This document shows, piece by piece, positions 4,672 through 18,226 of a stretch of DNA of 64,000 nucleotides. The stretch is from Pyropia yezoensis. Its lineage: Eukaryota; Rhodophyta; Bangiophyceae; Bangiales; Bangiaceae. The notes beneath the pieces were generated by a model that had not been told where the DNA came from, searched no databases, and saw nothing but the letters and a program-made list of their open reading frames with translations. Position 1 is the first letter of the stretch. Each line of letters starts with the position of its first letter. Both the position numbers and the translations under genes were made by a program. Where the stretch lies: positions 18,089,346 to 18,153,345 of the forward strand of contig CM020618.1 of assembly GCA_009829735.1 (NCBI GenBank), in the 5' to 3' direction.

Positions 4672-6354
4672 CTACCCCCCCCCCGCGGACCCCCCCCCCC
4701 GCCCCCCCGCCGCCACCCGGGCGGTCACGTACATAACGTTGCTCGCCCCCCCCCCCCAGCGCCCGTAGTCGGCGCGATCCCCCCCAAGGCGGTCCACCCG
4801 CTCTACCGCCCAGCCGGTACGGCCGACCGCCGACCGCACGTCTGGGGTGCCCCACGCAAAAAACGCGGCCAGGTCCACCCGCCGGGTGCCGCCGTCGCCG
4901 CCGCCCGCCGCGACGAGCGCGTCAAAGGTGGCGACCGCGCGGGCCCGACGGGCGGCACGGGCGTCAGCGTCGCCGCTCAACGGGCCGACCGTCGACGCCA
5001 GCAGCACCCCCCCCCCGCGGGCGCACAGACGGCGAGCGGTGCGGAGGGTGGCGGCGACGACCGCCTCGCCACCCAGGTAGTAGAGGACGCCCTCGGCCAA
5101 AAAGATGGCGGGGGCGTCAGGGTCATAGCCGGCGAGCAGCAGCGCCGCCTCCCACCCGGGGGCGCCCACGTCGGCGGCGACCGGCACCACCCGGCCTGGC
5201 GGCGGGGCCACCCCCCCCGCCGTCAGGCCCGCCGCTTTGGCCGCGTGCACCTCGGCTGCGTCCACCTCATAGACGGTCGACGCGGCAAGGTCGGGCAGCC
5301 GCCACGAGCGGGTGTCCATGCCCGACCCGAGGAGCACCACCTGGCCGCACGGGAGGGCGGCGGTGAGGGCATCGTCAAAGTAGCGGGTGCGGATTGCGAT
5401 GCGCGCCGCCGGGGTGGGGGGGGGAGGGAATGTCGACAGCGCCAGGGAGGTCGTCAGCGCCGCCGAAACGGGGTCGGTGAACAGAGGGGCGGCGGCGGTG
5501 TGCTCCAGTGACCGGTGTGCCGCACAGACGGCAGCGGAAAAGGTCAACAACGACGGCGGGGGGAGGGGGGGGGCACTCGTTGCCTCAACGGCGGTGACGG
5601 CCAGCGCGGGCGCCTCGGCTGGCACCCCGGACACGTCACCCAGGCCGGCCGCACCACCAGTACTGGCGGCAGCGGCGGTGCCCGACGGTGGCCCATCCAC
5701 GCCCTCTTCCATCCCCGAGCAGCTGCCGCTATCGCCTTCAACGTCCGACAAGTCGACAGCCGGTAAGAAAGAGACGGGTGGGTCCGCAGTGGGCTCGTCC
5801 GCAGTGGGCTCGGCCGCCACGGGCTCGACAACCGCGGTCTCGACAACCACGGTCCCGGCTACCGGGGCCTCGGGTACAGTAGGCTCGGCCGCCGCGGGCT
5901 CGGCCGCCGCGGGCTCGAAAACCGCGGGCTCGACAACAACGGACTCGGCCGCCGCGGGCTCGGCAACCGGGGCCGCAGATACAGCAGGCTCGGTCGCCGC
6001 GGGCTCGGCCTCCGCGGGTGTGGTGGCGGCAGCCTCAGCTGCGGTGGGCTCAACAACGATACGATCCGCAGCGGCCGTGGCGGCCTCAGCGACGACAGGC
6101 CCGACCGGACGGCGCCCCCTACCCGCGGACGCCACCGCTGGCGGAAACAGCCCCCGCCCCGCGGCCCGCGCGCCACCCCCTTCCCCTCCCCCCCGTGACC
6201 GGCCCGGCGAGCGCCCGCGACTCCGGGAGCGGGCCGCCTTGGCCGCCGCCGCCGCACGGCCGGCCTTAGCCGCCGGTGACGCAGACGTGGCCGTCGCCGC
6301 CGCCGCCGCCGCCGACCGCGCGGCGGTCGACGCGGACTCGGCGGCCGCGGCGGC

Positions 6355-6401
<47 letters not shown>

Positions 6402-6654
6402 GCGTGCCGTCGGCGCACGCGTCGGCCGCATCACCGACAGTGGGCGCCGCGCCGTCGGCGGCGGCGGCGACGACATCGTCGGCGGGCCCCCCTGCGGCCA
6501 AGGGCGCCCCGCCGGGCGCCTCCTGCTGCGGGGGCGCCCATGGCGGCCGCCCCTGACCGTCGACTGTCTCTGGCGGCAGTCCCCCCTCGCCATCCTGCTC
6601 CCGGGCGTCGTCGCCTCGCAAGCTCAGCCGCCGGAGGAGGCGGCCAAAGAGCAT
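4672..6654 (-). CDS. LCM/TIGR00027-type SAM-dependent methyltransferase with long repetitive N-terminal half
   Basis: Predicted class I SAM-dependent methyltransferase of the leucine carboxyl methyltransferase superfamily; the substrate is unknown. Of the 660 residues from the ATG at 6654, the catalytic domain is roughly residues 385-650. LGSGMDTRSWRLPDL near residue 441 is the glycine-rich SAM loop, followed by VYEVDAAEV, the acidic residue that binds the ribose, and EGVLYYL near 521. This order is typical of the TIGR00027/PPM1 fold. The first 385 residues are low complexity. They include an Ala run from GCC/GGC triplets (6360-6400), an R/S/G block, and imperfect V-x-E-P-A-A-A-E-P repeats at about 5780-6060. 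The start is uncertain because the frame is open upstream to 7191; the chosen ATG begins MLFGRLLRRLSLR, which could be an organelle-targeting peptide. The domain call is firm, the exact role is not. Confidence 0.75.
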
Positions 6655-7221
6655 GGCGGCGAGGGGGAAAGGGGAGGGGAGGGGGGCGGGGGGGGGGGGG
6701 GGGGGGGCGGTGGGGCGCAGTAGCAGGAGGGGGAAAGAAGCAGGAGGAGGTAAAGTCGCGGCGGCCACGCCGGGTGAGGGAAGGAGAGCCTGTCGGCCAA
6801 GGCGGCGCCGACGCGGAGGGACCCGGAGGCACCGCGACGCTCGCGCGGGGCCGGCGGATCGGCGCGTGCACGTCGGAATGCACCCAGGGGATGAGCCCCC
6901 AATCCCCAGGAATGAGAGCAGGCCCTCTGCAAGGGTGGCGGCGCTGCTCCCGCATGCATGCGGGCGCGTCCAGGAAGGCGCGCCGGCCGCCTGCAGCTCT
7001 GTGACCTGTGACCAGGCCGACCAATCGGGAAGGGTGATCTTGTGGCCTACACCCACACGTTTTTCCGTCCAAAATCCCAAGATATTGAGACTTCTTCGCC
7101 GGCATTTTCCGACCAACAAAGTACTGTACATACAAAAGGGAAAGAGAGGATTTTGAACGACTCTTGGCGGCCCCTGGACCCGACGACTCACCGGCAGTGG
7201 CCGGAGTCAGCCCGCACCTCG
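6655..7221. other. Upstream region of the methyltransferase gene, up to the transposon end
   Basis: It holds a G-rich run (about 6684-6710) just upstream of the methyltransferase start and a more balanced stretch at 7030-7160 that includes GTACTGTACATACAAAAGGG. No gene is recognised. The boundary with the mobile element is set at 7222 by the terminal inverted repeat. Confidence 0.4.
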
Positions 7222-7245
7222 ATCGTCAGCTCCCGCTGAAAGCCC
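7222..7245 (+). repeat. Left terminal inverted repeat of the transposon
   Basis: The 24 bases here are the exact reverse complement of 17913-17936. The matching block begins ATCGTCAGCTCCCGCTGAAA and ends with GCCC. Beyond it the two ends are only loosely similar (clusters of TCGA motifs). Confidence 0.75.
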
Positions 7246-7392
7246 ATCGAAGCCCGTCGAGTCCCATCGACCCATCGAGAGCCGCCTTCGATGGGCGTTT
7301 CCAGCACGTCCAGAGTCCCATCGAAAGCGCGCTTTCGACGGGACCCTTGACGGGGCGCCGCCCAACAGCGCTCTGAATGTTCGATGGGCTTT
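7241..7392. repeat. Left subterminal repeat cluster (CCCATCGA family)
   Basis: At least eight copies of an 8-base motif, CCCATCGA or CCCGTCGA, occur here. Direct copies lie near 7243, 7252, 7262, 7271 and 7317, and inverted copies (TCGATGGG, TCGACGGG) near 7288, 7335 and 7381. Clustered motifs in both orientations inside a terminal repeat are typical of CACTA-type transposase-binding regions. Confidence 0.6.
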
Positions 7393-7732
7393 CTCTCGCG
7401 TTTGTGAACACTGTCTCAAGACACCTCCACAACTGCGAGACAGCACCAACTGTGGCCCCTCTCATTGGATCGGCACCAGCTGTCAGAAGCGGGCCGTCGA
7501 CCGATCGACTTCAGCGTGGCGTCGCAGCAAGCTCGCGGGGAAAGCAGGCACAGTGGTCGGACGCGCCTTTCCCCGCCCAGGTGAAGGCAGCCGCCTCCCG
7601 AAAAATGCGCAGCCCCCCGTCCCACCTCGCCGACAACCGCTCAACGACCGCGGTTGCAACCGTCTCCACGGATCCAATGTCCCCGCCCCGGCTTCCACTT
7701 CCCCAGCCACTGTCGCTTCGGACGCCCCAATG

Positions 7733-8180
7733 CCCGCCCCCCCCGCCGGGGCCCGCCACCGTCGCCGACACAATCGCCGCTGCCGTGGCGGTGTCGGCAG
7801 CCGCGGCTGTAGCGGCGTCCGCCGACCTGGCGGCTGCGGCGGCGACGGCGGCTCCGTCCCCGCCTTTGGGGCACGAGCACAAGCTGCTGCAGCCGCCCCT
7901 CCCGCCGGGGCCCGCCACCGTCGCCAACACAATCGCCGCGGCCGTGGCGGTGTCGGCCGCTGCGGCTGTAGCGGCGTCCGCCGACCTGGCGGCTGCGGCC
8001 GCGACGGCGGCTCCGTCCCCGCCTTTGGGGCACGAGCACAAGCTGCTGCAGCCGCCCCCCCCGCCGGGGCTCGCCACCGTCGCCGACACAATCGCCTCGG
8101 CCGTGGCGGTGTCGGCAGCTGCGGCTGTGCCGGCGTCCGCCGACCTCGCGGCGGCGGCCGCTGTGGCGACGGCAGCACCT
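7733..8180. repeat. 159-bp tandem repeat, nearly three units
   Basis: Two full units and one partial unit recur with a period of exactly 159 bases; the anchor GGGGCYCGCCACCGTCGCC starts at 7748, 7907 and 8066. The period is 53 codons, so every frame stays open on both strands. It lies in the 3-prime flank of the transposase gene inside the mobile element. The plus frame from 7377 reads through the array as an Ala-rich protein (7377-8252), but nothing shows it is expressed. Confidence 0.8.
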
Positions 8181-8510
8181 ACACCGGTCGGTACCGCGAT
8201 TTTTTCCATGTACTGTGTGCAGGAACCGAGGGCTACATGCTGGAGGGCGTGAGTGCACGTGTCTATGCGTCGCGCGCCAAGGACGGGCCGACCTTGCTTG
8301 CCGAGTGCAACGGACGGCGATTTTCTGTCTTCATGTGGACGGGCGCATGCTGGGTATGACCTTATGTGCTGTCGTTGAGATGTTCTTCGTTAGCCCCGCC
8401 GTATTGTCCGCAACCACCTCTGCCCCCATAACTCTAGTTCTAGTTTTTTGGACAAGGCGTCAATGCGCAAGACGAAGACATAAACAGCAGTCAATGACAC
8501 ACCGCAAAGA

Positions 8511-11500
8511 TCACGACCCCCATGGATAAAATGCGTTGATGAAGAAGCGCATAGCGAGACGATCTTCCACAGGGTCACCCCACTGCGCAGGCTTTGCATC
8601 AAAGCCACGGCGACTGGCCAGGTCTGCAAAGTCTGGGACCACGTGAAGCACTCGTCGAATAGCAGACAAGGGCAATATTCTCAAGACAACGTCCGTTTCG
8701 CCGTCGTGTACGCTCCAGGCCAGCCGCGTGCACCCGCGGGAGACCAAGGGGCAGTTGGCTACGCCTGGGACGACCGCCATGTCTGCCACAACTGCGACGT
8801 CACCGTCAGGCTGCCGGACGATCGCACGAACCTCGGCCACCGACAGTGTCGAGGTGTCATCAGCCGAGGAGTACAGGACAAAGTCGTACCATGGATCACC
8901 TCGGAAAGAAGGGGACGCGTACAGCAGCTGCGTGAGCGTCGAGCCGCACTCAAACACAGCCTCGAACTGGACGCGAGTGCTGATACGCACCCGCGCGTCC
9001 ACAGGCAGCTCGAGGGCTGCCGCAAGACCCGCCAACCCTGGCCACTGGGCCATGGTTGACAAACGCACTCGACGCAGGTGATACGCAGGTGTCCGCAAAG
9101 CTGCGTCCTCGGCACGACAACCAGGCGGCCCTCGCGCACGAGGTTGATCACCGGGAGCCACGTCGGTCGCACCATCCGTCCCACCTCCACCGAGCGCGTC
9201 ATCAGGTAGGTCCTCGCCGTGAAGGATCCCGCCCCGTCACTGTCAGTGTCCTCATCCCCGGCAAGTTCCTCCAGACCAGCGAGGAGGCACTCGTCCTCTT
9301 CAGCATTGCGCCGCAGGATGATACGGGCGCCCTGCGCCTGCACAACAAGCTGGCGGGTGAAGCCCGCTATCGCCTTGTTAGTGCGCGCGTAGTAGGGCTT
9401 GTCGTCCTTGTGGAGACGCTCGTTGATACCCGCATTCCCATTGTTGATGTTTCCATGCATGCGTATGGCCTCCATGACGTGGCATAGCAGCTTGTGCACC
9501 TTCGTGGAGTTTTGAGCGCCTAGGATAGGTGTCAGGTACATGGTCACAAAGCGCTCCGCCCGGTCCGCGATGCACTTGCCGACGTCAAGGGTGAGGGGCA
9601 TGGGGGCGGTGGAGCATGTGTTCCCGGACATCTCCGCGTGCAACACCGCGAACTCCGCGAACATGACCGTGATGGCCTCGTCGATCGGCGTCTCCTTCCA
9701 CACAGCGTGATAGGCAGGCCAGTCATATTGGGCTGTGCCAGCCTGACCGGCCGGAACGTTGCTCTCCTCACCGTCATCCTCAGGATCATGCAGACCCAGA
9801 GCCGCGACACGTGCGGCTAGGTCAGGCACAGCGTCAGGGACGCCATCGCCGACGGGTAGAGATGCGTCCGCCCCAGAGCCAGTAGGTGCGGGGACCGGCA
9901 GAGCCCCGCGTGTACGCCAGACCCCGGCCACCAAGTAGGCCATGGTTGACACACCCTCCCGCTGATGCTTCCCCGTGAAAACGGACTGCGGCTCGTCGTG
10001 CTTGACCAAGTATCTTCAGAGAGTCATACATGCGTTCACGATGACGTAGGAGATGCAGGACAGTGCGGAAGGAAAACACGTTGAGCAAAACACCAAGAGC
10101 AGACGTAAGCCACACATGAGTGGGACAATGGAGGCACCACGCGGCGGCATCCGCAACCGCTCACAGTCCACACAGAGGCCACAATTTGCATATAGAGGGG
10201 GCCAAGAGGATGCTCATGCCCACCACTGCTCGCACGACCTTCACAACAACGTACCCTGGCGGTGTTTGGTAAGCTTTACTGCGGCGCCCGAGGTGCTGCA
10301 GACGCTCGTTGCAAATGCGGGGCGACGCGGCGTCCGTCCCTAAGAGGGGCGTGTCACCGTCGCAAAACTTGGGGAAGACCTCGACGAGCCACTGCACGAG
10401 CAGCCTGGTCGCGCCCAGGTCCAGCACCTGCGTCAAAATCCGAAGCAACCCGAAGCAGAGGGTAACAAAACGTCGCACACCGTCAGACTCACGGCTCCAC
10501 CATAGATTGTCTATGGAGGCGAATGCACAACACCCCGTTGCACACGCACACCAAAGGCAAGCCAACGTACGTGCAAGGCATCGAAGCCAATCATCTTGTA
10601 CAGCAAGTAGGGAGATGTGGAAAGATCTTCCATTGCGGCCAACGCCGGCACAAAGCCAGTCAAGCTGTCGGAGGCCTCAAGCGTCTCCTGTCTCGCACGC
10701 TGCCTACTGCTCTGACGGAGGCCATCAACCTCCAACTGGCGCTTAAGCGTCTCCACAACGTCGCGTTCGGCAGCGCTCAGCGCCTCGGATGACCCAGCGA
10801 CATCCACCAGTACGTCACACTGGGAGCACGGGCGCTGGCACTGGCCCGCCTTCAGGCACAACACAGCACGCTTTTCCGGTTGATCGCATACATAAAGCAA
10901 CACACAAGGAAAGGCCATCAGCTGCCGGCCGCCCACGCAGACCTCCACACCAAATCTGCTCGCTGCCATGGCCGTACGCATGCACACGTACAGGAAGCGC
11001 TGAAGGACTCCACAGCGGCGCAGTCGGGAGCGTTCCTTCGCCGCCGTCTCAACTAGGGTCCGCACAATTGGGATGTACGCGACGGTCATCCACTCGATAT
11101 CACCAGTCATGTCGTTGACAAGACGAACTCGAACCGGGTACAGTTTGTGAGCTGAGGAGGTGCGCCAGCGGTGAGCAAGAGAAAGGCAGTGAGGTCAGTG
11201 TACAAGGCAAGACAAGAAAACAGACGTGACGTCAGTTTCTGCACGTGGGATTGAGGACGAGCGCACCCTCACAAATCATTGAAGGCAGCTGAACGGTAAT
11301 CAACACGTGCCCTCGCACGATGAACGAAAGCGGCAACGTACCTCCAGACCACGAAAGCTGGCTGCTGTCACTATAGAGATGCAGCCCTAGCACAAAACTG
11401 GAGCCGCCGTGAGTGCCGACCACCTCTTTCTCACAGAGGCGGAACGCGTCACCGTCCATGGCAGACTGTCGTAGATTGGTGGGAGGTGCAGGGCCACCGT

Positions 11501-12428
11501 CCCCGCTCCACAACCGTACACCAGCTGCGCTCTTGCGCAGGTGAGCCATTACCACCTCCAAGACAGACCGGTAGTACACCTCGTAGACGGCACCGCCCTC
11601 ACGGATCTTCAGTTTCTTCCAGCCCGCGCCTAGTACAGCGTCGCTGATGTCGTCGCGGAGCGCGTTCGTAAATGTAGAAGCCGTAGGAAACACGGCACTC
11701 AGAGAGAGGTGGTCACGTACCTCCATCCGGTCCACTGCGTCGCGACGGTCCCAAACCTCCAAGAAGTCGTACAGCTGCTTCTGCTCTCTCAATGACAATC
11801 CCGCCCCGCCCACACCGAGAACAAACTGCTGCAGTGCCCGAAGACGACGGGTGTTGAACCTCCCTGGTCGGCTGTTCTTGCGTCGCTGCAAAATGGGGAC
11901 GGACCGCGCGGCGTCATCGAGCACCTCGTAAAGACTGAGGACACGCGTCGCCAAGGACTGGTAGGCGTACGCAGCATCCATAGCGTAGTCAGCAGCGCCT
12001 TCCCGCAACACCCCAGTCATCTCTAGCAGAGGATACAGCTTCGCACGGATGGCGGCGTCATAGCTGCCGGTACTGTCGGCTACGAGAGCACCCAGACCCA
12101 CAGTCGCTTCATCTGCCATCAGCTTGTCGTCTGGATCCTGGGTGCTGTCGGCTCCCGGACGAGCTGCTCCACCGTGGGGCTGCCGGCCGCCCATCAGGAG
12201 GTCCATGTGGCTTCGTGCCCTGGGACGCAAGGGAGCGCCGGCCGTCTCAAAGGCGCCATGAGGATCCCCCAGTGGTGGCGACCTCCCCCTCTTCCTGCTG
12301 GGTATGCCGTTTCCCTCTTCTCTCCCGTGAGCCGACCTCTGGTGCCATACAAAGCCGCCTTTGCTGTGTGTCGTGAAGTCACAGACAGAGCAGACGAGCA
12401 GCCTGGCCCGCTTCTTCCCACCAGACAT
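8511..12428 (-). CDS. Plavaka/CACTA-like transposase with N-terminal C2H2 finger, spliced, with one apparent frameshift
   Basis: I propose exons 11342-12428, 10571-11151, 10255-10427, and 10013 down to 8511. Three introns (190, 143 and 241 bp) each start with GTACGT, end in AG and keep phase. Residues 10-34 hold a C2H2 finger (CSVC, then H and H four residues apart). Plavaka-type blocks follow: LYSDSSQLSWSG joined to AHKLYPVRVRLVNDM, then FPCVLLYVCDQPEKRAV, CQRPCSQCDV, FDALH joined to VLDLGATR, PPG joined to YLVKHDEPQSVFTGKHQREG, and KVHKLLCHVMEAIRMHGN with INERLHKDDKPYYARTNK. Near 9060-9160 the frame moves by one base into the final block (residues such as DPWYDFVLY and HVVPDFADLA). This is either a mutation, a sequencing error or an unrecognised small intron, so activity is uncertain. 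Confidence 0.7.
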
Positions 12429-13214
12429 ATCTGTCAACGGCAGTAGCAGTGACAGAGACCGAACCAACGAGCGGCAGCACACCGTGAAGCGGTCCAATGT
12501 CAGCGTCAATGACCTGTTCACAGCAAAGGAACCCGCGGCGCTAGGTCGACGACGGCAACGCATTGCTCTCGATCCCGCGCACACATTGACGTCCATAAAA
12601 CGCCTGTGGAGATACACGTACCATAGGCGTAACAGGCGGCCACCTCATCGGCAGTGCAGACGAAAAGTGAGGAGGGTGGGACGTCCGCTTCGACGCGGAA
12701 GAGAGCAGCACATAGGTCTCTGGAGTTGCGGGGGCGGCACGTCGGCCCAGACAAGGAGGAAGGAGAACGGTTGCACGGCCAAGATGTTGCGCGTTGGCGG
12801 GCAGAGGCAGGCGGCTCACACGTCGGCGTCGGCGGAGAGAAGAGCGGCGCGCCAGGTGGAAAGTGTGGAGGGCAGCAGAGCGGCGCGCCTGGTCGAGAGA
12901 ATGGAGGGTAGCAGCGTGGCGCCTACAGGACTTACGGTCGTACGCCAACGCGGCTCAGCGCAAATGACCTGTGCCTCAAGAGCAGTCGGTCACGCATTGA
13001 GGCAGGGTGATGCAAGCGACCACACGGTACCGCTCTCACGCAAAGTCACTCAGCTTCACACGTCAGGCACCCGCCTGCACCGTCCAAAGCGCAATCAGAG
13101 CCCCGGCGACACCGCGTGTGGTAGCCACGCCTCGGCGACACTGTGTGTGGCGGCCGCGCGCCATTGCCCTAGGGAGGCAGGGCGGGCTGGAGCCCTTTCC
13201 ACCACCCGCTGCCT

Positions 13215-13250
<36 letters not shown>

Positions 13251-14310
13251 CCCCCCCACCGCCTCCGCATGGGACCCTCAAAGGAGATCCAAGAAAGTCA
13301 CGCAACGTACAGAGAGTGTGGCCATGCCTCCTGCTGTTGGCAGGCGTGTTGGCAGGCTGTTGCAGGCTACTGTGGCAGGTCTGTGGCCGACGTCGACAGG
13401 TCCCACCGAGGCCCATCGAGGCCCATCGAGCCCCGAGAAGGCCGTCGTCAGCGCAAGATTTCAAGCTCCGCCAGCGCAACTTGCTGTCTTCGAGAGCAAG
13501 TGAGTGTAAATGACAGAGTTACGGGATGCGTCGACCAATAGATGTGCGGCATTGCCAATACTTGACTGCTCCAAGTGGTACTTTTTTTTCTGGCCTCGGC
13601 GCCAACAGCTTCCGACACGCCACGCAATCTGCCTCCCTCTGTGGGTCCCCAACGAGAGCGTTTCGCCGCTGCTTTGGCTCCTGCGCTTCGCACACCATCG
13701 CCTGAACGCCTGCGTAGCGCCTGTGGTCCGCGTCTCTTCCTGGTACGGCACCCGCTGCCAAAGTCGGACTGCGCTCGTCCCCACGTACTTTCTGGTCATG
13801 GATCGGCTCCGGCGACGGTACGTCGGCTTGTGGACGGCGGGGAGAGGGGTAGCCGGCGCCTGAGGCCAGCCCACGAGCGGCGCAGCGTCCTCGGTCGCGC
13901 TTCCACAGATGTGTGCCGTAGCTAGTGAGGGCGAAGGGTTGCTTCTCCGTCCTGATGAGAGGACGGTATTCAGCGGTGCTGAGGCCTGCTGCCTGTGGAT
14001 GAAGATTCTTCGTCCTGCCTGGCGCCGCGCCCGCGCGAAGGTAATTTCCTGCCGGTTAGGCTCCCCTGTGCGGTCGCAACTGCACCCGGCGCTCGCTTGT
14101 GCGTCTTGTCATGTGAACCCTTGAGTGTGCTCTTTGGTACAAAAGCGTGGCAGGGCATGGCCCAGTGAGCGATGAGGGCGGTTTTAATGCGGTGTCTCTG
14201 ACGACGCGTTTGAGCCTGCGCTTTGTGGTGGCGCCCCTTGCTGTTTCTCCCTTACCCCCCTCCTGTGTTCACTGTGACCTGACCCGTTCGTTCCCCACAC
14301 TCCCCCCACT
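12429..14310. other. Non-coding interior of the transposon between the two divergent genes, with a C34 run
   Basis: This 1.9-kb stretch separates the transposase (leftward) from the accessory ORF (rightward), so it should contain both promoters. It includes a run of 34 C (13216-13249). There is also a short mid-element copy of the GGCCCATCGA motif in tandem (13405-13430), followed by CGTCGTCAGCGC, which resembles the left terminus. No protein in it is recognised. Confidence 0.4.
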
Positions 14311-16983
14311 ATGCCTCCTCGGCGCATTCCTCAGCTATTTGCCAACCTTCCTTCGACGCAGCCGACGGCCGCAAGTGATGGCCATGCGGCAGCAGCCGCT
14401 GTTCTGGCGGAGATGCCGACGGGTCACGCGCAACTGCACTGGGTCACGCCTGGCTTCGCCTCGGACGAGTCGTCCGTTCTCCAGCCTCCAGTGCTGTCCC
14501 CGGCAGCCAGTTCGGCCCGACCACCGCTTGCAGCCCGTCCTCTCCGGGCTGCGGAGGTGCGCGGAATGGCCTTGCCCCCCCGGCGACCTGCGACGCTCGT
14601 CGCTGCTGCGTCGACGCCCCCGCGGCGCACCTCGGCGATGCAGTCGGGGAAGCGCGCGCTGGGGGCGTCCACGACTCTGAAGGGTGGCGCTGATGCGACA
14701 GCTGCAGGCGGGACGGCTCATGAGGAGGATGGCGCTTCTCCGGTCTCCATCGCAGAAGCCGCGCGCCGGGGCGCGCGTGCCACAACCACGCCGATGGTGC
14801 CTGTCGGGGGGGGTGGCTCACGGGCCAGCACGCCAAGCCAGCCCGCCGTTTCACGAGCTGCGTCGCCGGGGTCGGCGGACCTGCATGCACCGCCATCGTC
14901 GTCCGGCGTGCGTAGGCCTTCCTTGTGCGAGGCGCCCCTGCAGACGCGTCAGGCTCCTGTGGCTGTTCCACCCAGAGGTCTGTCTTATCGGGTGGTGCAG
15001 GGGGGGGCTGCTGCCAACAACGCCGGTCTCGCTGGAGAGCGGTCGCTTACGCGAGCGGCTTTCAAGTCGCCGTCCAAGCCAACAAAGGGCGTTCGAAAGC
15101 AGGTCAAGCCGCGCGTCAAGCGCGCATCCAAGAAGACGGTGACTCAGCAGCTGGCCGATGGTCCTGCTGGCGGGCCTGTTCGGGTGTCTGACGGGCCGCC
15201 AACGGCAGCGTCGCAGAATGGAGCTACGCCGCTTGCTGTTCCTCCTCCAATTCACCAGGTAGGCGAGCCGCCTGCTTCTTCGCACGTGACCGTGGTCGCA
15301 ATGACCAGGGTGTTTGTAGAGGGCCTTCACCCAGTGTGTGCCCACTTGGCGGGGCTGAGCAAGAAGCTCGATGAGGTCCACACCTCCGTCAACCGCCTTT
15401 CAACGAGCTTGCACAACCAGGGCGTGGGGAACAAGCGCACCGCCCAAGCTGTGGTGCAACTGCACGGCGCCTTCAAGGGCGTGTACGACGGGGTGGTCGC
15501 CAGAGTCAAGAAGGAGCCGGTTGGGGCGGTCAAACTTCGTGGGAGCACCGCGATGCTGGACGACTGTGAGGCCCAGCTGGAGCTGGCAACCATCAATGAA
15601 CAGGAGCTCGGTGATGTGCGCGACGTGGCCAAGAAGGCGCTGATCAACGAGATGTTGGGGTCCACCGAAAGCTACAAGGCGATGCCCAACCGGGCGCGCT
15701 TCCTGGGTATGTTGTGCGAGGCTTGCGAGAGCGTCCGAGGTGGCACCCGCGACGACTCGGAGGCGTACCTTGCGAGCTTCCGCGTCTTCTTGACGACAGC
15801 CGGCACCCCAACGGAGAAGCGCGTTCGCGTCAGTGAGAAGCTCCTCCGCATCACCAGCCACGTGACCGAGGCTCTGCGGAAGGTGGCAATGCAGGCGTGC
15901 TTCAGCAGCTTGGGCGACAACGTGGAGCTGATGACCCCCGAGGTCGCGGCCAAGTGGCTGCAGAAGGGCAAGTACGCGAACTCTCCAACGGCGGACGCCG
16001 CCATCAACGCCGCGCTGAAAGCGATGTTCAAGCGTAATGGCCACCATTCGCGTGTTGTTGAGCCTAAGGACGTGGGCGACGCCGAGTACGTTGACGCAAG
16101 CACTGGACACGTCGGGCTTATCGCCCACTGGGCACGAGGCATGTTTGAGAAGGTGGCTGGGGTCCGTAAGTCGCGCCGAAGTGGCAACGATGACGGTGCA
16201 TACGATGGGTGGCGGGAGGAGGTGCGTCATGTCAGCAAGTTCCTCCGCAAGCACCAGAGCGTCAAGGCCGGTCTCCGGCTGTGTGATGGAAAGGACAAAC
16301 GACGCGCCATGCAAGTTGCCGACGACGGGACCTTTGTCATTGACGCGTCGGGCGATGAGCTCCAAGAGCGTCCGGCTCGTCCTGCTGGGTCGAGTGGCTC
16401 TGCGGGGTTGGATGGCTCTGCGGGGTCTAATGGCTCTGCCGATCCGGAGTGGGATAGTAGTACGACGCTGCTGCCTGGGTATGCGTCAGGGGACGGCGGT
16501 ACGGACGGTGGGGAGGGCGTAGACGGTGGGGAGGGTTATGATGACGGGGAAGATTATGATGACGGGGAGGGCCTTGGCGATGGGGAGGGCGTCGAGCATG
16601 AGGAGGGAGTTGCGAGAGAGGAGGGAGTCGGTGGCTGGGATGGCGTTGATGGAGGGGAGGGTGTCGCCGTCGCGGATGGTGCTGAGGGTGGGGAGGGCGC
16701 TGCCCGTGTGGGGGGTACTCGTGTCGTCGTGGATGGCTCCGACGATGGGGCCGGCCTTGGTGCTGTCGGGGACGTGGCCAGTGGGGCTGTTGGTGAATCT
16801 GCAGGAGTCGTGAGCGGTGGTGCTGGCATTGACGCTGCGGATGGCGTTGACGCTGCGGGGGGTGCCGACGCCGTGGTTGGCATTGAAGGTGGCGAGCTGG
16901 GTCCCGCTCCGCCTGGAGTTCTCCCGGAGAGCGCCGCATATCCGGGCGGGTTTCCTGAGTACCTCGAGGAGGTGCCTCTGTGA
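14311..16983 (+). CDS. Uncharacterised 890-residue basic/acidic protein inside the transposon (possible second, TnpA-like gene)
   Basis: I do not recognise this family. The uninterrupted 890-codon frame starts at an ATG after a pyrimidine-rich leader. Residues 1-250 are Ala/Pro/Ser-rich. A strongly basic block at about 250-282 (KSPSKPTKGVRKQVKPRVKR and following Lys/Arg) could bind DNA. Residues about 325-685 have mixed composition and look folded and helical, with LSKKLDEVHTSVNRLSTSLH as a possible coiled coil and a long alpha-rich part around EVAAKWLQKGKYAN. The last 200 residues are a Gly/Asp/Glu tail with repeats such as DGGEGYDDGEDYDDGEG. Its position between the same terminal repeats as the transposase suggests an accessory transposition or silencing-evasion protein. 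That role is inference from position only. Confidence 0.6.
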   Translation: MPPRRIPQLFANLPSTQPTAASDGHAAAAAVLAEMPTGHAQLHWVTPGFASDESSVLQPPVLSPAASSARPPLAARPLRAAEVRGMALPPRRPATLVAAASTPPRRTSAMQSGKRALGASTTLKGGADATAAGGTAHEEDGASPVSIAEAARRGARATTTPMVPVGGGGSRASTPSQPAVSRAASPGSADLHAPPSSSGVRRPSLCEAPLQTRQAPVAVPPRGLSYRVVQGGAAANNAGLAGERSLTRAAFKSPSKPTKGVRKQVKPRVKRASKKTVTQQLADGPAGGPVRVSDGPPTAASQNGATPLAVPPPIHQVGEPPASSHVTVVAMTRVFVEGLHPVCAHLAGLSKKLDEVHTSVNRLSTSLHNQGVGNKRTAQAVVQLHGAFKGVYDGVVARVKKEPVGAVKLRGSTAMLDDCEAQLELATINEQELGDVRDVAKKALINEMLGSTESYKAMPNRARFLGMLCEACESVRGGTRDDSEAYLASFRVFLTTAGTPTEKRVRVSEKLLRITSHVTEALRKVAMQACFSSLGDNVELMTPEVAAKWLQKGKYANSPTADAAINAALKAMFKRNGHHSRVVEPKDVGDAEYVDASTGHVGLIAHWARGMFEKVAGVRKSRRSGNDDGAYDGWREEVRHVSKFLRKHQSVKAGLRLCDGKDKRRAMQVADDGTFVIDASGDELQERPARPAGSSGSAGLDGSAGSNGSADPEWDSSTTLLPGYASGDGGTDGGEGVDGGEGYDDGEDYDDGEGLGDGEGVEHEEGVAREEGVGGWDGVDGGEGVAVADGAEGGEGAARVGGTRVVVDGSDDGAGLGAVGDVASGAVGESAGVVSGGAGIDAADGVDAAGGADAVVGIEGGELGPAPPGVLPESAAYPGGFPEYLEEVPL

Positions 16984-17912
16984 CGTGCTTTGACGACGTG
17001 AGGAGGGTGTGGCGGAGTGTGGCGGAGTGCAACCAATAACCCCGTTGGACTCACGGGTGGGTTCGAGGACATGACCGGGACAGCTTGCTGCTGCTTGTGC
17101 TGGAGGGCTCGCCGCTGTCGGCTGTGGGATTGTGGAACTGTGTCGTGTTGGCGGCCTTGCTCGTAGGCTGGGACTGGCTGCTGAGAGTGTGATAGCAAAG
17201 TGCGGGCAGGCGGAAAGTGTGAGGAGGTGTAGCCGGCGGGAGGGGGGCGGGGGGAGGGGGGGAGTGGCATGGAGATTGGAACTGGCCGCTGACCTAGCCG
17301 CCGGCAGCTTGTTGTTTGCATGTGAAGGAGGAACCGGTGGGCGAGGGGAGGGGTGGGGGGGGGGATAGGCGAGACTCTTAAGCAGACGCCCTGGGCTTGC
17401 TTGAGCGCCTTTTCTATGTAGTGGTAGACAGCCGAGTAGACGCTGGCGAGCCAGCGCTGTCTGTATGAGCACAGTTTGTACGTCTGCGTGTGAGTTATTC
17501 GTTGCTCCCAGAGATGATTGGAAGATGGCCAGGACCGCTTTGGTACCACCACAGCGTCAACAGTGTGTCCTTCTTCGTTGCGCGGTATCCAGGGTCTTAC
17601 CAACAGCACTAGTGGCTGCCACAGTGAGCAGGAGTACCAGGGCAGGGGGGGGACGAAAGGGAAGCGAAAGTGGGAACACTGGTATAGGTTGTGGTCCCAC
17701 ACGAAGACCTCGTGAGAGAGCTGAGAATTATCATGAGTCCGAGACTGTGCATGCGAGACTGTAAAGGACGCGCGCCCGATAGGAATCTCCATCGAGGCCC
17801 ATCGAGCGCGTCCCCATCGAGTTTCCCTCGAAGGCCCATCGAAAAGGGGTTTCGGCGGCCACTGAAGCCCCGTCGAGTCCCGTCGAGTTTCCATCGAATG
17901 CGCGGACTCGGC
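16984..17912. other. 3-prime flank of the accessory ORF and right subterminal region
   Basis: No gene is recognised. The distal part (17785-17900) carries CCATCGAG, CCCATCGA and CCCGTCGAG motifs near 17789, 17797, 17812, 17834, 17868, 17878 and 17891, mirroring the left subterminal cluster. Confidence 0.5.
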
Positions 17913-17936
17913 GGGCTTTCAGCGGGAGCTGACGAT
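17913..17936 (-). repeat. Right terminal inverted repeat of the transposon
   Basis: Exact reverse complement of 7222-7245. The sequence just outside is CGAT-free poly-G-rich DNA (GGGGGTGGGG), in contrast to the interior. Confidence 0.75.
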
Positions 17937-18226
17937 GGGGGTGGGGGTGCGCTGGCAGGGGCGGCCCGCGCGGGGACCGGCAGCTGCGCTGGCGGCCGGT
18001 GGCCTTGACACGGCGGCGTCGGCAAGGGTAGGCAGCCGCCAGCTGCAGCGGCTGCTGCGTTGACGTCGTGACGTGTCGCGCGGGGGGCGGGGGCGGGGGG
18101 GGTTGGCTGGAATTCCGACGCGGCCGCTGGTCCGCGCCGGCCCGGCTGGCGGCGGTCGGCGTCTGCGTCACAGCCCGCAACGGGTTCTGCGCCCCCCCAC
18201 CCCCTAGGCCTCCTCTGTCCCCCGCA

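Follow-up and report, generated by a model that had tools for sequence, protein, structure and literature searches.

Maize En/Spm, a member of the CACTA group, encodes beside its transposase a second protein, TnpA, which binds the subterminal repeats of the element. Arrays of subterminal motifs and a transposase accompanied by a second protein are likewise found in the DNA transposon described here, which occupies positions 7224-17934 (10,711 bp) of a 64,000-nucleotide stretch of DNA, hereafter the window, from the edible red seaweed Pyropia yezoensis (nori; GCA_009829735.1, contig CM020618.1, 18,089,346 to 18,153,345). We hold with high confidence that it is a cut-and-paste transposon of the Plavaka branch of the CACTA/EnSpm-Mirage-Chapaev-Transib (CMCT) group, with the product of its second gene, ORF2, as a putative helper. 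En/Spm differs in its 3-bp target duplication and its CACTA ends, the two genes of the window element are divergent, and the likeness to TnpA is one of arrangement.

Among the Plavaka elements of fungi, PlavakaB has the termini CATCA..TGATG and duplications of 2-3 bp, and PlavakaA has the termini TGT..ACA and a 2-bp duplication (PMC12730594). PlavakaB shares with our element a CACTA-group DDE transposase with the C(2)C and H(3-4)H motifs and a range of duplication lengths that includes 2 bp, and its termini are a single transition away from the CGTCA..TGACG of the window. The window element differs in its 5'-CG instead of 5'-CA ends, its AT duplication at a CATG-like target, its ORF2, the absence of TET/JBP in a Pfam scan and its red algal host. 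PlavakaA has the same 2-bp duplication, with termini unlike those of the window. EnSpm-Plavaka elements described as potentially active occur in another alga, the green Auxenochlorella (PMC12633428). In Amoebidium, also outside the fungi, Plavaka elements flank giant repeats (PMC11244446), which differ from the window element in their size of up to 50 kb and in their tyrosine-recombinase genes.

Borders and gene structure of the element

The features of the element, each with its basis, are as follows.

7222..7223, unstranded: AT, the 2-bp target-site duplication on the left side (judged from a relative's empty sites; AG and AC in relatives)
7224..7245, + strand: left terminal inverted repeat, 22 bp, CGTCAGCTCCCGCTGAAAGCCC, beginning CGTC (tip comparison, empty sites)
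7244..7387, unstranded: left subterminal CCRTCGA array, 8 sites in both orientations, spaced about 10 bp near the tip (motif count)
7734..8210, unstranded: three 159-bp tandem repeats (sequence repeats, copy comparison)
8511..10013, - strand: transposase exon 4, with the H-x4-H motif, the catalytic E and the C-terminal domain; frame broken near 9227 (codon phase, alignment)
10255..10427, - strand: transposase exon 3 (GTACGT donor, AG acceptor; codon phase, alignment)
10571..11151, - strand: transposase exon 2, with the putative second catalytic D in CDQPE, the C(2)C motif CSQC and the Pfam Plavaka match (Pfam, alignment)
11342..12428, - strand: transposase exon 1, with the start codon, a C2H2-like finger and the putative first catalytic D in YSD (Pfam, copy alignment)
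13401..13434, unstranded: 10-bp-spaced CCRTCGA cluster between the divergent genes, a possible regulatory site (in 6/7 elements)
14311..16983, + strand: ORF2, a single open frame of 890 amino acids (codon phase, copy comparison and the ratio of nonsynonymous to synonymous substitution rates, dN/dS)
15268-16377, + strand: conserved core of ORF2
16494-16731, + strand: acidic tail of ORF2, of 18-bp repeats, beside a conserved C-terminus
17789..17897, unstranded: right subterminal CCRTCGA array, 7 sites (motif count)
17913..17934, - strand: right terminal inverted repeat, 22 bp (tip comparison, empty sites)
17935..17936, unstranded: right copy of the target-site duplication, AT (empty sites of a relative)

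An earlier note on this DNA had proposed one intact or nearly intact transposon of 10.7 kb at 7222..17936 with 24-bp perfect inverted repeats. The repeat ATCGTCAGCTCCCGCTGAAAGCCC is indeed exact at 7222-7245 (+) and 17913-17936 (-), and the region is one transposon; its borders had to be moved, since the outermost AT, left and right, belongs to the target duplication, and what is left is an element at 7224-17934 with 22-bp repeats. The word intact is too strong as well, because the transposase frame is broken near 9227. A spliced transposase with a second large open reading frame, also claimed in that note, agrees with the codon-phase and dN/dS evidence. In the region of the left tandem repeats (7377-8252) the codon phase is ambiguous and we make no coding claim.

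The coding blocks of the minus-strand gene came from codon-phase analysis against a 77% identical copy, and splice donors (GTACGT, GTAAGT or GTGCGT) lie at matching places in all seven aligned copies. In the alignment the motifs YSD, CDQPE, CSQC, HKLLCH and NERLHK follow one another, so that the set D, D, C(2)C, H(3-4)H, E, defined for EnSpm, Transib, Plavaka and their relatives (PMC12730594), is present in order, with one C lost in the C2:18569 copy; which D residues are catalytic is our reading of this alignment. For the N-terminal C2H2-like finger the Pfam matches are sub-threshold. A search of solved structures with the transposase profile gave a single match, at E 0.68. Two of the seven copies have an uninterrupted frame, that at C3:10294 with 1,114 amino acids and that at C2:18569 with 1,115. 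In the window copy, compared with four of the six others aligned there, a one-base length difference near 9227 shifts the reading of the C-terminal domain; the remaining two have further length differences. A short additional patch in the N-terminal part of the window copy is also out of frame. As PacBio long reads underlie the assembly (PMC7423979), the break may be real or may be an assembly error. With its own frame interrupted, the window copy would probably need transposase from another copy. A related transposase is intronless and open across 1,140 amino acids, with about 45 extra residues where intron 1 would be.

ORF2 as a putative helper of transposition

ORF2 diverges from the transposase gene, and its frame is open in four of five compared copies and frameshifted in that at C3:10294. 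Its core has 109 matches in the 107.5-Mb genome containing the window, with identities down to 21%, and these merge into 97 loci. A transposase match lies within 10 kb of 68 of the 97 loci and is divergent at 63, compared with a mean of 2.7 and a maximum of 8 in 500 random placements; with the less sensitive Pfam profile, 49/97 have a transposase within 8 kb, 48 of them divergent. Seen from the other gene, among 147 transposase loci ORF2 was found within 10 kb of 67/94 with at least 37% identity to the query and of 0/53 below that level. Both lists hold the best candidates only and the counts are lower bounds; the zero may partly come from ORF2 copies too diverged for detection, and with this reservation ORF2 appears to mark one group of transposases. 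The 53 loci below 37% identity are further Plavaka-like transposases with no ORF2 detected, and they include a block of near-identical scores at 33% identity, suggesting one high-copy family.

Selection has acted on both genes. Between subfamilies dN/dS is 0.15-0.18 for the transposase and 0.15-0.17 for the core of ORF2 (0.30 for full-length ORF2), and between recent copies it is 0.59-0.99. This pattern would be expected if both proteins were needed for spread and the copies decayed freely afterwards.

Of the motif CCRTCGA, the window element holds 8 sites in its left 250 bp, 7 in its right 250 bp and 3 in the other 10.2 kb; in all seven elements, counting either orientation, there are 6-8 in the left and 6-10 in the right 250 bp, at a density of 0.23-0.66 per kb inside. 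The repeat clusters reported earlier inside both ends recur, with at least six sites at each end, in 7/7 elements.

How would such an element move? The borders, the target duplication (in a relative), the gene structure, the catalytic motifs, the selection and the co-occurrence of ORF2 are read directly from the sequence. The cut-and-paste chemistry is not; in it, the DDE transposase assembled from four exons would excise the element at its 5'-CGTC...GACG-3' termini and insert it at CATG-like sites, where the 2 bp in the middle (usually AT) would be duplicated. The ORF2 protein, encoded by the divergent gene, probably helps the element move. Most likely, by analogy with TnpA, it binds the arrays at both ends, which would bring the ends together, and the intergenic cluster, through which it would regulate both genes; our main ground for a helper that is also a regulator is that the same motif recurs at either end and in the space separating the divergent genes. 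We put forward only tentatively, and with somewhat less than even confidence, the fuller proposal of a two-protein red-algal branch of Plavaka with its own 5'-CG ends and CATG rule, in which ORF2 would be a new sequence-specific partner that binds the arrays, assembles the complex and sets the dose of transposase.

Several observations weigh against a two-protein transposon with a helper. The transposase carries at least one stop or frameshift in five of the seven copies, the window's included. No transposase match lies within 10 kb of 29/97 ORF2 loci, and no ORF2 match within 10 kb of 27/94 transposase loci with at least 37% identity. The intergenic cluster is absent from one of the seven elements (C2:18569). 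No known domain was found in ORF2, for which Pfam and NCBIfam both gave no match, and its single-sequence structure model is unusable, with a mean predicted local distance difference test score of 39.5. A profile of ORF2 found no informative relative among solved structures, only a coiled-coil signal; the best matches were coiled coils, the leading ones mostly designed (sc-apCC, sc-t-SNARE), with syntaxins and others behind them, which we read as generic coiled-coil similarity. A search of viral contigs found no ORF2.

Could ORF2 instead be a passenger, or act on host silencing? This fits a protein with no recognised domain whose DNA binding is predicted only, and the TET/JBP genes on some fungal Plavaka families are thought to act on silencing. 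It sits less easily with the retention of ORF2 across the whole transposase group at 21-100% identity, under purifying selection and nearly always as a divergent partner, nor did the Pfam scan show a TET/JBP domain. We therefore consider a passenger or silencing role less likely and prefer that of a helper.

Placement within the CACTA group

On its profile match and motifs we class the element as Plavaka-type within the CACTA group, in line with the earlier proposal. It is placed as a separate lineage and not as PlavakaB, because CGTC ends are kept instead of CATCA..TGATG. Its 2-bp duplication falls within the 2-5 bp of the CMCT group and the 2-3 bp of Plavaka. Against the Plavaka profile PF18759, with its cut-off of 26.3 bits, the exon-2 frame scores 28.7 and the spliced C3:10294 protein 26.7; the profile has 114 matches in this genome compared with none in 14 control genomes. 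Two points tell against the placement: the match barely clears the cut-off and spans under half of the profile, and the assignment depends on profile and motifs.

Is it possible that this is a classical CACTA/EnSpm element? The order of catalytic motifs is the same, subterminal repeats are present, the two-gene plan resembles TnpA/TnpD and the same genome holds Transposase_21 (CACTA) loci. The transposase itself has no match to PF02992 (Transposase_21) at E up to 1, whether the spliced copy protein or two related transposases are searched; the termini are not CAC..GTG and the duplication is of 2 bp, not 3. A classical CACTA element is thus improbable, and we retain the Plavaka-type assignment. 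With the 48 matches of Transposase_21, this genome is home to two branches of the CACTA group.

A new algal lineage, as the note suggests, is plausible. Plavaka in an alga is not new in itself, since EnSpm-Plavaka elements are on record from a green alga (PMC12633428); the CGTC ends, the AT duplication and the ORF2 partner look like a new variant. Among the matches listed in our literature searches, no Plavaka title concerned red algae and no paper mentioned Plavaka together with Pyropia yezoensis; the search did not extend to Repbase or to most subscription papers, where an earlier description is possible. Giant cargo elements like those of Amoebidium were also considered, as three end pairs span 19-44 kb, but ORF2 fragments repeat inside them and we read these spans as nesting or assembly duplication.

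Target site, copies and assembly

The clearest view of the target comes from a relative at C3:514 kb, inserted within a short repeat of many copies (96 match rows). In 16 of 16 uninterrupted copies, taken from the top of that list, the empty site reads GATC-AT-GYCAA with a single AT, and the filled site has AT on both sides. Elsewhere the C2:18569 element has AG on both sides as a direct repeat, the distant relative e24644 has AC on both sides, and the shared homology of two near-identical distant relatives starts exactly at CGTC. On these grounds the AT itself is the duplication, and CG, suggested earlier, was ruled out. What counts against carrying this over to the window is that the empty sites come from the relative's insertion and not from the window's own. 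The host repeat of C3:514 is a high-copy sequence of about 120 bp, many copies of which are about 90% identical, and its ends, TATAGTGCGTCCCG and CGGGACGCACAATA, form an inverted repeat.

The flanking bases extend the target. C precedes the dinucleotide at 20/28 left ends and G follows it at 17/23 right ends, whereas for other AT dinucleotides of the window the shares are 40% with C before and 39% with G after; the target is therefore CATG-like. The left count covers 28 of 32 places (three without a recognisable tip and one duplicate were omitted) and the right count 17 of 18 places plus six additional ends, with the bases entered by hand.

Might the AT (or CAT) belong to the terminus, the element inserting without any target duplication? 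AT is found at nearly all tips read, the C and G just outside would suit this idea, and a search for a duplication outside ATCGTC in 13 element pairs (lengths 2-5, offsets 0 to 3) gave counts near those of mismatched pairs; the 13/13 agreement at offset -2 holds by construction and was not used. The empty sites, holding one AT and not zero, refute the idea for the C3:514 insertion, and the direct AG and AC pairs and the start of homology at CGTC, inside the AT or AC, argue the same way elsewhere. Insertion without duplication is therefore very improbable, and we keep AT as the duplicated target.

The left end has 39 match rows in the genome, corresponding to 32 distinct places (7 rows being inverted sub-matches inside the same ends), and the right end has 18 places; ten element regions were retrieved for comparison. 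The best full-length copy, at C3:10294-10305 kb, is 97.2% identical over 7734-17937 (10,218 bp) and 94.9% over 7222-8179, and its homology to the window ends at 7222 and 17937, without running past the ends. Copies at C1:18883 kb (99.2% over 10,043 bp) and C1:18041 kb (98.7% over 5,356 bp) can each be followed as far as a scaffold gap, of 500 N in the first. Identity of up to 99.2% suggests that the family was recently mobile. Piecewise matches of 67-82% occur at C1:29241 and C3:20762 kb. For C2:18569 the interior DNA match to the window is limited to 2.2 kb, and for C2:11118, C3:5079 and C3:514 kb there is none; the ends of these four diverged copies enclose not unrelated interiors but genes for both of these proteins, again divergent, with pieces of about 50-88% identity. 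CGTC is kept as the first four bases in diverged copies with recognised tips, the fifth being A, T or G, and also begins three of four distant relatives. On the opposite side, the fourth distant element has no recognisable ends and 3 of 12 weak left-end places have no recognisable tip.

That the identical ends are an assembly artefact or a chimeric repeat can practically be dismissed: three end pairs do lie in reversed orientation, with both pieces of one pair reaching 500-N scaffold gaps and both pieces of a second ending in the same inserted repeat, from which one leads to a 500-N gap, yet the window contains no N and six other elements are complete and gap-free between matching ends.

The reversed pairs are irregularities in their own right. 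The near-identical copies C1:18041/18883, mutually reversed and ending in gaps, suggest a mis-oriented or misplaced contig, and an inversion by alternative transposition was dropped for them since both pieces reach the gaps. A single element, interrupted by an inserted repeat, accounts for the regions at C3:20732 kb (a left end with some of the transposase C-terminus) and C3:20762 kb. Its pieces, with the end pair C3:20744/20774, together make a whole element with a 5-bp overlap, and the same 364-bp repeat flanks each at the break, as though a terminal-repeat element had gone in there; the pieces now lie in opposite orientation at a distance of about 23.5 kb. Here too alternative transposition was dropped, as the arrangement fits an inserted mobile element and a mis-oriented contig, and a real inversion may be involved. 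The third pair is C1:37159/37135. Two nearby places share identical ends and flanks at C1:3264/3273 kb, and likewise at C2:30235/30244 kb; with one of them beside N, they look like duplicated contig ends. Next to the transposon in the window, an open frame on the minus strand (4672-7206) carries a leucine carboxyl methyltransferase domain (PF04072, E 1.9e-32), and the transposon begins just past its 5' end.

In the papers that we found, Plavaka is described mostly from fungi, with little on how the elements move. For a cultivated seaweed, the nori family supplies exact ends and gene models together with a target duplication and empty sites. Through its conserved ORF2 partner one can test in what way accessory DNA-binding proteins are recruited by the CACTA group, and the element could seed a native gene-tagging tool for red algae.

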